A stretch of DNA of 41,457 nucleotides, taken from an uncultured Erysipelotrichaceae bacterium (GTDB lineage Bacteria > Bacillota_I > Bacilli_A > Erysipelotrichales > Erysipelotrichaceae). A program made the position numbers and the translations under genes. The notes beneath the pieces were generated by a model that had not been told where the DNA came from, ran no database searches, and saw only the letters and a program-made list of their open reading frames with translations. The stretch lies in the NCBI GenBank assembly GCA_949296305.1, contig CASFOT010000051.1:1-41457 (forward strand). Reading direction: 5' to 3'. Each line of letters opens with the position of its first letter. Positions within the stretch are counted from its first letter, which is position 1. Positions 19,300 through 22,097 of the stretch are shown here, one piece after another.

Positions 19300-19328
19300 T
19301 TGAGTTTTAGGAAAGGCTGTGCTATAAT
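19300..19328 (+). promoter_or_regulatory. Promoter of the nucleoside hydrolase-ECF operon
   Basis: TTGAGT (19300-19305), 17-bp spacer, TATAAT (19323-19328). Transcription would begin about 19335, immediately before the aptamer-like hairpin. Confidence 0.8.
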
Positions 19329-19337
19329 CGGAAACGA

Positions 19338-19370
19338 ACTGGTTTCATAACCTCCCAGTATAATCATAGG
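19338..19370 (+). promoter_or_regulatory. preQ1-I-like riboswitch aptamer
   Basis: A 5-bp stem ACTGG/CCAGT closes a 12-nt loop TTTCATAACCTC, followed by an 11-nt A-rich tail ATAATCATAGG. This is the compact H-type pseudoknot layout of preQ1 class I riboswitches. The loop segment ATAACC resembles the ligand-pairing GTAACC of the Thermoanaerobacter tengcongensis aptamer, and the tail AGG can pair with loop CCT to make helix P2. It lies at the very 5' end of the transcript and is followed by an intrinsic terminator, then by genes of a queuosine-salvage type. The tail has more T than usual, so this is a structural match, not a proven one. Confidence 0.6.
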
Positions 19371-19410
19371 CAAACAGATAAATATAATGGAAAATTGGAT
19401 TTTTTTTGCT

Positions 19411-19441
19411 GCTTTGTCTATGTTTGGACGAAGCTTTTTTT
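19411..19441 (+). terminator. Leader terminator (riboswitch expression platform)
   Basis: An 8-bp stem GCTTTGTC/GACGAAGC (one G-T pair) with an 8-nt loop is followed by seven T. It lies before the ribosome site of the nucleoside hydrolase. CAAACA (19371-19376), directly after the aptamer, can pair with TGTTTG (19421-19426) in the terminator loop and could act as antiterminator. That mechanism is inference. Confidence 0.7.
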
Positions 19442-19460
19442 ATGTAAGGAGGCATGTAGG

Positions 19461-20453
19461 ATGAAAAAGCGAGTGATCATCGATTGTGATCCTGGAATTG
19501 ATGATAGTTTAGCGTTGATGATGGCTTTGAGCAGTGATGCGATCGATGTGATCGGAATCACGATTGTTTGCGGAAATTCGCCGATTGACATGGGATTTGA
19601 AAATGCAAAGAAAATCTTGCATCATATGGGACGCCTTGATATACCGATTTATAAAGGGGCAGATCGCCCGCTTGCCAAGGAATATGTCAATGCATTAGAT
19701 ACGCATGGCGAAGATGGTTTAGGTGAAAGCTTTTTAGAAGAAATAGCGGGATACGATACACATGAGCAAGCCGTATCTTTTCTGGCCCGAATTTTACATC
19801 AAGGCCCGTGTTCTGTTATTGCTTTAGGGCCGTTGACTAACTTTGCCCAGCTGATCCAGGAAGATGAAAAAGCATTTGATGCAATTGAACGATTGGTGTC
19901 GATGGGGGGGACGTATCGTTCACATGGGAATTGTTCTCCTGTGGCAGAATATAACTATTGGGAAGATCCGGAAGCTGCAGAGATCGTCTATCGGCACATG
20001 GAACAAACGGGAAAACAGATCGAAATGGTTGGCTTGGATGTGACCAGGCAGATCGTTTTAACGCCGGATCTGTTATCTTATATAGAACGTTTAGATGAAC
20101 GACAAGGGGCATTTATTCGTAAGATCACCAAATTTTATTTTGACTTTCATTGGTCACAGGAGCATTTGATTGGGTGTGTGATCAACGATCCGTTGGCAGT
20201 GGCTTACTTTTTGGATCCAGCAGTATGTGCAGGTTTTTCCAGTCATGTCGATCTGGTGACGGATGGACCAGCAAGAGGACAGACTATTGTCGATGCATTT
20301 GATTTTTACCATCGTTCTCATAATGCCTATGTGCTGACCAAGTGTGATCCATTGGCATTTTTCCAAATGTTCTTGGCCCTGATTCTGCATAAGGAAAAGG
20401 AATCACTAGATTTGTTAGAAAATCTCATAGGGGATAGGAAGGGGATATCATGA
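19461..20453 (+). CDS. Nucleoside hydrolase, probable queuosine hydrolase (QueK-like)
   Basis: This 330-residue inosine/uridine-type nucleoside hydrolase has the Ca2+ and ribose site DCDPGIDD (8-15), the AEYNYWEDPEAA motif (162-173) and NDPLAVA (242-248). The second motif is HDP in classical enzymes; here the leaving-group His is Asn, hinting at a different base. AAGGAGG precedes the ATG at 19461. An ECF S component overlaps it by 4 nt, and a preQ1-I-like leader precedes it. This setting matches queuosine salvage, where QueK-type hydrolases release queuine from imported queuosine (family knowledge; assignment inferred). A plain ribonucleoside hydrolase is the alternative. Confidence 0.85.
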   Translation: MKKRVIIDCDPGIDDSLALMMALSSDAIDVIGITIVCGNSPIDMGFENAKKILHHMGRLDIPIYKGADRPLAKEYVNALDTHGEDGLGESFLEEIAGYDTHEQAVSFLARILHQGPCSVIALGPLTNFAQLIQEDEKAFDAIERLVSMGGTYRSHGNCSPVAEYNYWEDPEAAEIVYRHMEQTGKQIEMVGLDVTRQIVLTPDLLSYIERLDERQGAFIRKITKFYFDFHWSQEHLIGCVINDPLAVAYFLDPAVCAGFSSHVDLVTDGPARGQTIVDAFDFYHRSHNAYVLTKCDPLAFFQMFLALILHKEKESLDLLENLIGDRKGIS

Positions 20454-21007
20454 AAAAGAAAGTTACTACATATCAAATTTGCATATTGGCGTTTTGCGTT
20501 ATCATGAATATCATTGGCGGACAGATTGCCTTGTTTTTACGTTTGCCGATCTATTTAGACAGCATCGGAACAGTATTAGCTGCGTCATTGTTCGGGCCTT
20601 TGTATGGCATGCTGCCCAGCCTGCTGAGCGGGTTGATCATGGGAATCAATGATGTTTATTCCATCTATTATGCTCCGGTTGGCATCCTATTTGGGTGTTT
20701 ATGCGGATTTGTATGGAAAAAAGAAAAGTCTTCATTGATCTGGCCTTTTGTGGCAGCATTTTTCGTAACGATCCCAAGCTCATTTGTCAGTGCATGCATT
20801 ACTGCTTATTTGTTTGGCGGGATCACTTCTTCAGGTTCTACTGTATTGGTACAGCTGCTGGCACAAACACCTTTGGGATTGACGGTCAGCTGCTTTCTTG
20901 CCCAGCTGCTCACCGACTACGCTGATCGTGTCGTTGCTTTTTGGATCACGATCTTGATGAGAAAACGGTTATCGATCGATCATCAGAATCGAAAAGGTAT
21001 TCGATAA
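20450..21007 (+). CDS. ECF transporter S component, probable queuosine/queuine uptake (QrtT-like)
   Basis: This 185-residue hydrophobic protein has about six helices. It contains the ECF S-component style sequence LPIYLDSIGTVLAASLFGPLYG near residues 32-53, then GLIMGINDVYSIYYAPVGILFG. S components bind the vitamin-like solute and share an energising EcfAAT module, which is not encoded here. It overlaps the nucleoside hydrolase by 4 nt (ATGA), so uptake and hydrolysis are coupled. With the preQ1-like leader, a queuosine, queuine or other 7-deazapurine solute is the best guess. Confidence 0.8.
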   Translation: MKKKVTTYQICILAFCVIMNIIGGQIALFLRLPIYLDSIGTVLAASLFGPLYGMLPSLLSGLIMGINDVYSIYYAPVGILFGCLCGFVWKKEKSSLIWPFVAAFFVTIPSSFVSACITAYLFGGITSSGSTVLVQLLAQTPLGLTVSCFLAQLLTDYADRVVAFWITILMRKRLSIDHQNRKGIR

Positions 21008-21398: not shown

Positions 21399-22097
21399 AT
21401 GTATCAGGTCCTTTTGTTTGATGCAAATGATACGATATTTGATTTTCACGCTTGCGAACAGCATGCATTAAAAGAAACTTTTGCCAATCATGCCATTGAT
21501 TTTCACAAAGAGATGGAAGCATGTTATCATGAGATCAATCATGATTTGTGGAGCCGTTATGAAACTGGCGAACTATCGCGAGAAGAAGTGGTCTTTACAC
21601 GGTTTTCATGCTTGTTTGATCGTTTTCATATTGATCTCGACGGGGTCTTGTTTGAAAAAGATTATCAATCTGCATTGGCTGAAGGACACCAGCTGTTAGA
21701 AGGTGCTTATGATTTGTTGACAGCGTTGCACGGACATTTCCGCTTGTTCATCGTCAGCAATGGTGTGGTCACAACACAGTATCAGCGTTTGCATGATGCC
21801 GGCCTAACATCTTTTTTTGAAAAGATCTTTTTATCTGAAGAGGTGGGATTTCGAAAACCGCAACCAGAATTTTTCCAGCCTGTTTTACAAGCAGCAAATT
21901 GTGAGCGGAAAGAGCTGTTGTTGATCGGTGACTCGCTGACCTCTGATATCAAAGGGGCAAATCAAATGGGAATTGATTGCGTATGGATGAACCCACAAAA
22001 GAAAAAGGCACCTGCTTCTTTACGGATCACTTTTGAGATCCAAGCATTGGATCAATTATATGAGATTTTAGGATTAAATGATTCGAGCGTACAGTAA
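21399..22097 (+). CDS. YjjG/YfnB-like HAD hydrolase with altered motif I
   Basis: The 232 residues have the layout of YjjG-type noncanonical pyrimidine nucleotidases: motif I FDANDTIFDF (7-16), helical cap, motif II FIVSNG, motif III FRKPQPEFF and motif IV GDSLTSDI. In motif I the second Asp, the general acid/base two residues after the nucleophile Asp8, is Asn10 (codons GAT GCA AAT). Other motifs are intact. It may be slow, inactive, or use another residue. AGAGG precedes the ATG. A terminator follows, so it ends the transcript that includes the zinc-ribbon gene. Confidence 0.85.
   Translation: MYQVLLFDANDTIFDFHACEQHALKETFANHAIDFHKEMEACYHEINHDLWSRYETGELSREEVVFTRFSCLFDRFHIDLDGVLFEKDYQSALAEGHQLLEGAYDLLTALHGHFRLFIVSNGVVTTQYQRLHDAGLTSFFEKIFLSEEVGFRKPQPEFFQPVLQAANCERKELLLIGDSLTSDIKGANQMGIDCVWMNPQKKKAPASLRITFEIQALDQLYEILGLNDSSVQ

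Follow-up and report, generated by a model that had tools for sequence, protein, structure and literature searches.

A leader element related to preQ1-I type I riboswitches precedes a putative queuine-salvage operon in Erysipelotrichaceae

The window analyzed here (the whole stretch of 41,457 nucleotides from an uncultured Erysipelotrichaceae bacterium) contains a short leader element related to the preQ1-I type I riboswitches, followed by a terminator and the genes for a nucleoside hydrolase and an ECF S component. The best explanation of our results, to which we assign a probability of roughly 0.6, is that the leader is a transcriptional OFF riboswitch descended from preQ1-I type I, that the operon behind it serves direct queuine salvage, and that the ligand is queuine. 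This reading joins computed results (the motif with its alternative structures, its association with particular genes and its pathway context) to what we infer for the ligand, the substrates of the hydrolase and transporter, and the specificity of the tRNA-modifying enzyme TGT. In the proposed mechanism, the ECF S component would import queuosine or queuine, the hydrolase would release queuine from queuosine, and a fusion of a queuosine precursor transporter (QPTR) with TGT, encoded elsewhere in the genome, would insert queuine into tRNA. With little queuine in the cell, the CATAGGCAAACAG tail would base-pair with the terminator (5' arm and loop), and the operon would be read. Abundant queuine would dock between P1 and P2 (the CCU/AGG helix), its guanine-like face paired with C19354, and formation of P2 would take the AGG from the antiterminator, so that the terminator would form.

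Leader architecture and competing structures

The promoter, the 33-nt hairpin-plus-tail (19338-19370) and the intrinsic terminator that the first-pass annotation had proposed were all borne out (Table 1). The promoter agrees with the consensus at 10 of 12 positions, the element has an ACTGG/CCAGT stem, a 12-nt loop and a CCU complementary to the AGG of its tail, and the terminator has a 10-bp stem and a T run. Of the 25 aligned leaders, 23 have a hexamer that resembles a -10 box in four or more of its six positions and lies 1-10 nt upstream of the element. The C of the aptamer loop that matches C17 of preQ1-I (C19354) is presumed to be the ligand-pairing base.

Table 1. Features of the leader and operon in the window.
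Feature	Position	Strand	Basis or remark
Promoter TTGAGT-17-TATAAT	19300..19328	+	10/12 consensus positions
P1 5' strand ACTGG	19338..19342	+	Conserved in orthologues
Aptamer loop, 12 nt	19343..19354	+	U19343/U19344 match U6/U7; U19353-C19354 match U16/C17
P2 5' strand CCU, complementary to AGG 19368-19370	19351..19353	+	Nearly invariant complement
P1 3' strand CCAGT	19355..19359	+	Conserved in orthologues
Tail AUAAUCAUAGG with P2 3' strand AGG	19360..19370	+	A30/C31 equivalents are C/A in the window
Antiterminator 5' strand CATAGGCAAACAG, includes P2 AGG	19365..19377	+	Duplex -15.0 kcal/mol (predicted)
Antiterminator 3' strand CTG/TTTGTCTATG, overlaps terminator 5' arm and loop	19409..19422	+	
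Intrinsic terminator, 10-bp stem (19411-19434) and T7 run	19411..19441	+	
Shine-Dalgarno AAGGAGG	19446..19452	+	Sequence; precedes ATG 19461
Nucleoside hydrolase (IU_nuc_hydro), 330 aa, proposed queuosine hydrolase	19461..20453	+	PF01156, 293 bits; PDB relatives
ECF S component, 185 aa, proposed queuine/queuosine uptake	20450..21007	+	4-nt overlap with hydrolase

The antiterminator suggested earlier, CAAACA/TGTTTG, was replaced by a longer, conserved one in which CATAGGCAAACAG pairs with CTG/TTTGTCTATG and which, in the window, has a predicted energy of -15.0 kcal/mol versus -13.6 kcal/mol for the terminator. In 24 of the 25 leaders, pairing between the tail (CAUAGGC...) and the terminator (5' arm and loop) draws on the AGG that P2 would also need; the sole leader whose antiterminator does not use a terminator arm is that of genome G167, and at least two of the three AGG bases are paired in the antiterminator in all 25. 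The antiterminator strands co-vary between genera with pairing kept (AAUAGGU with ACUUAUU in L015, AGGCAAGG with CCUUGUC in L018), and the duplex beats 95% of shuffled downstream regions in most, not all, leaders. Because the antiterminator and terminator are mutually exclusive and the aptamer AGG is part of the antiterminator, the layout supports reading the leader as a transcriptional OFF switch, with a ligand response that we infer. The competition for the AGG thus upholds, in these 24 leaders, the OFF-switch expression platform that had been placed behind the preQ1-I-like pseudoknot.

Distribution of the element and its relation to preQ1-I type I

Close orthologues of the S component occur in about 28 of 273 family genomes, with the hydrolase directly upstream wherever the contig holds both genes. 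Nearly all operon genomes share the element as aACTGGUUU, a variable stretch and ACCUCCCAGUAUAAUMAUAGG, followed by a terminator, and the alignment of 21 orthologous sequences has 19 invariant columns. A covariance model trained on 21 sequences gave 47-64 bits in 26 of the 273 genomes, all of them among those with a close S orthologue, and the remaining genomes gave noise, none of it above 25 bits; an order-wide search of 316 genomes with this model found no genomes beyond the 26. The near identity among orthologues and the separation of the 26 genomes from noise place the element beyond chance. When 84,980 species were scanned for the exact pattern, all convincing matches came from Erysipelotrichaceae and MAGs of that group, among them Merdibacter massiliensis, Faecalicoccus, Faecalitalea, Longicatena, Traorella and Absicoccus. 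Matches in Kluyvera, Paenibacillus, Opitutales, Balneolaceae and Thermosediminibacterales, which have neither a P1 partner nor Q genes, were set aside as chance.

The element lies upstream of the same hydrolase and S component pair in nearly all 26 genomes, and its sole other host gene is QPTR (Vut_1/TIGR00697). Three model matches from outside the training set scored 52.6-53.0 bits (G166, G169 and G086). In G166 and G169 (L105, L111), a second copy about 0.8 kb upstream precedes a QPTR-family gene (PF02592 above its cutoff; TIGR00697 at 40 bits versus a cutoff of 51), and the two switch copies are thus in adjacent transcription units. In G086 (contig C34, L115), the element is followed by a truncated S component without a hydrolase, and this locus is a decayed copy of the operon. 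Presence and absence compared by Fisher tests gave p values of 1e-8 to 1e-34, which ignore phylogeny and do not come from independent trials because the genomes are akin to one another; the weight rests on an association that extends over 13 genera, two transporter families and two pathway markers. Within the element, P1 shows one compensatory change, from CUGG/CCAG to CCGG/CCGG in genus g9. P2 is nearly invariant and lacks true covariation (in leader L016, UCU replaces CCU and creates a G-U pair), so that its support is conservation and homology rather than covariation.

By sequence, the element is a relative or variant of preQ1-I type I and not a strict member. Scoring against the Rfam preQ1-I model (RF00522), a check that the first-pass annotation had recommended, gave the window element 12.4 bits, below the gathering cutoff of 39, with model positions 6 to 31 aligned. 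The variant element reaches 26.3 bits in G236, and the cutoff was passed by no family genome, the best being G204 at 38.7 bits. Most weak RF00522 matches in the family are noise, and Rfam matches to sroB, Spot 42, the L10 leader and PyrR, far below their cutoffs, were dismissed as chance.

The element shares with the type I riboswitches (RF00522; structure from Carnobacterium antarcticus) the H-type pseudoknot plan with a 5-bp P1, the UU after the P1 5' strand, the UC before the P1 3' strand, a tail that pairs back to the loop, and Q-salvage genes on its 3' side. Comparison with ordinary preQ1-I examples and published structures (PMC8752633, PMC11625349) showed that, of the type I pocket bases U6, U7, U16 and C17 (PMC8752633), U7 is present in 27 of 28 copies and the other three are invariant. 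In contrast, C31, which reads the second preQ1 in type I (PMC8752633, PMC11625349), is replaced by A in 27 of 28 copies, giving AUA for the conserved tail CUA, and position 30, A in the known riboswitches, is A in 17 copies and C in 11. From P1 to G34 the variant counts 10 nt, 3-6 nt fewer than the 13-16 nt of ordinary preQ1-I, and it occurs in hosts without QueA or QueH. G167 alone keeps ACUA, at the variant tail length, and its tail looks intermediate. Ordinary preQ1-I elements are recognisable in the same family upstream of genes that read as QueT-like, with a gene that reads as QueF-like next in some.

Operon proteins and pathway context

The best curated match of the S component is NF045596 (CD3073 family), whose relatives often adjoin nucleoside hydrolases, at 90.7 bits versus a cutoff of 180. 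A Pfam search at E 0.001 gave no match, and an orthologue fragment from G167 scored 23.8 bits against PF12822, the QrtT model (cutoff 30.7). In a tree with weak rooting and support, the protein falls outside the CD3073-like and QueT clades, beside a clade from G204 and G301, in both of which the S component is preceded by an ordinary preQ1-I element. On score and tree, membership of the CD3073 family was rejected; CD3073-like members form another clade and mostly have their own EcfT and EcfA. CD3073-like S components clustered with nucleoside hydrolases, EcfT and EcfA were seen at L032, L033, L154 and L155; these clusters are a different, putative nucleoside uptake system. As for the hydrolase, the NDP in place of HDP that had been taken to fit a non-standard base is correct and conserved, but it is also present in hydrolases of other ECF clusters. 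The results support the queuosine-related salvage operon proposed at the outset, with a hydrolase and an ECF S component behind a preQ1-I-like pseudoknot. A YjjG-type pyrimidine nucleotidase gene at 21399-22097, two genes 3' of the operon, is probably separate from it, and one also lies 3' of the operon in a genome of the same genus (L100).

QueA was found in 0 of 28 operon genomes versus 22 of 29 other genomes tested, and QueH in 0 of 28 versus 13 of 17. These absences indicate that preQ1 is not an intermediate in the host lineages, which seem neither to produce nor to use it; most relatives that have ordinary preQ1-I, QueT and QueF possess both QueA and QueH. Searches for tgt, QueA and a QueL-like gene, which were among those that the first-pass annotation had called for, recovered tgt in 26 of the 28 operon genomes but neither QueA nor a QueL-like homologue. 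The sole QueL-like radical SAM gene seen, in G301 (L161/L166), follows an ordinary preQ1-I element together with an S component and encodes a 233-aa RaSEA-like protein that may be QueL; it has no homologue in the operon genomes.

In C. difficile, too, Q salvage combines a riboswitch with a nucleoside hydrolase and an S component of the ECF type: its queK-qrtT-queL operon carries a preQ1-I riboswitch (PMC11477304). Unlike C. difficile, the hosts studied here have a variant aptamer and no QueL-like gene, QueA or QueH, so that salvage of queuine would be direct rather than indirect, and direct queuine salvage is what the operon looks like it serves. Chlamydia is known to take the direct route (PMC11570991), and 'Aq' genomes with TGT only are regarded as direct queuine salvagers (PMC6593275). 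The present hosts resemble Chlamydia trachomatis and the 'Aq' genomes in having TGT without QueA or QueH, and QPTR-TGT fusions have been reported (PMC11130926); they differ in adding a riboswitch-controlled hydrolase/ECF module and in their TGT pocket.

The TGTs of operon genomes form a separate group, at about 350 bits to PF01702 versus about 540; nearly all genomes with the element have such a divergent TGT, in many cases fused to QPTR. In all 8 sequences examined, the pocket loop facing the 7-substituent reads GGAFL---KE instead of GGTSVGE; the ligand pocket has a three-residue deletion (L001, L090-L097) and DEL in place of DEC, and the catalytic Asp residues are kept. The reported queuine-type signature GG[LS][AS]G (PMC11570991) was absent from all 8, and on these residues the pocket is of neither the published queuine nor the preQ1 type. 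In the window genome (L001:1492-3327, contig C22), QPTR (Vut_1) and the divergent TGT are fused in a protein of 611 aa, and a similar fusion of 651 aa occurs in G002, of the same genus. QPTR and TGT are encoded by adjacent genes in two genomes without the operon, G005 and G006, and tgt adjoins the operon in part of genus g9.

Candidate ligands

Queuine is favored as the ligand because it would provide end-product control: the hydrolase would produce it and TGT would use it, in hosts where preQ1 appears to have no role. We further propose, at about even odds, that the element is a separate queuine riboswitch class, which arose from the two-ligand preQ1-I type I after Erysipelotrichaceae moved from preQ1 to direct use of queuine, and in which the two-site pocket was rebuilt for a larger single base. 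Other steps involving Q precursors are already known to be riboswitch-controlled, and in the papers searched no riboswitch for queuine was described. If queuine is the ligand, a natural riboswitch would have changed its ligand together with the pathway, and this change would be open to dissection because ordinary preQ1-I, the intermediate tail of G167 and the variant all occur in one family. The element would then also provide a queuine sensor, queuine being a micronutrient that gut bacteria and their host exchange, and salvage genes would be identified in common gut Erysipelotrichaceae.

The strongest counter-evidence to queuine is G204 (L029/L167), in which an ordinary-looking preQ1-I aptamer (38.7 bits) lies between the hydrolase and S genes of a genome that has an altered TGT and neither QueA nor QueH. 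Aptamer type therefore tracks the pathway imperfectly: either ordinary aptamers tolerate queuine, or G204 represents a transition state, or our reading of the pathway is incomplete. The departure of the TGT pocket from GG[LS][AS]G and the lack of covariation in P2 also weigh against the queuine reading, as does the Bartonella case described below.

The first-pass annotation had named preQ1 as the likely ligand, and a divergent type I aptamer might still bind it, perhaps at one site instead of two, with preQ1 shutting the operon. We consider this unlikely, since the hosts have neither QueA nor QueH with which to use preQ1, a hydrolase that frees the base from queuosine yields queuine and not preQ1, the TGT pocket is rebuilt, and the low Rfam score (12.4 versus 39) is accompanied by a changed edge-reading tail, with C31 lost and position 30 either A or C. 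Nevertheless, U6 and C17 of the first site and the type I bases U7 and U16 are kept, the sequence clearly resembles preQ1-I, with a score as high as 26.3 bits in G236, and G204 has its ordinary aptamer in the same pathway context. Furthermore, the Bartonella TGT uses preQ1 although QueA has been lost, which shows that a lineage without QueA and QueG has not necessarily switched to queuine (PMC11570991).

It is somewhat more doubtful that the compound sensed by the aptamer, and salvaged by the operon, is queuosine (the presumed substrate of the hydrolase) or a different purine, for example guanine. Any guanine-like face could pair with C17, but U6, the base that touches N9 of preQ1 in the structures known (PMC11625349), is invariant in the variant element, which disfavors a ribosylated ligand. 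The nucleoside hydrolase is the first gene of the operon, and CD3073-type ECF clusters with several hydrolases in relatives suggest that the S-component superfamily may carry other nucleosides; however, the same leader is also found on QPTR-family genes, and an OFF switch that answers its own imported substrate would be less sensible than end-product control by queuine.

Finally, a non-ligand RNA, i.e. a conserved hairpin and attenuator such as a protein-binding leader, is very improbable: the motif is short, with little covariation and a nearly invariant P2, but its unpaired positions are conserved as strongly as the paired ones over many genera, the preQ1-I pocket bases are kept, only Q-related genes lie downstream of the element, and the related S genes of G204 and G301 have recognisable preQ1-I riboswitches.
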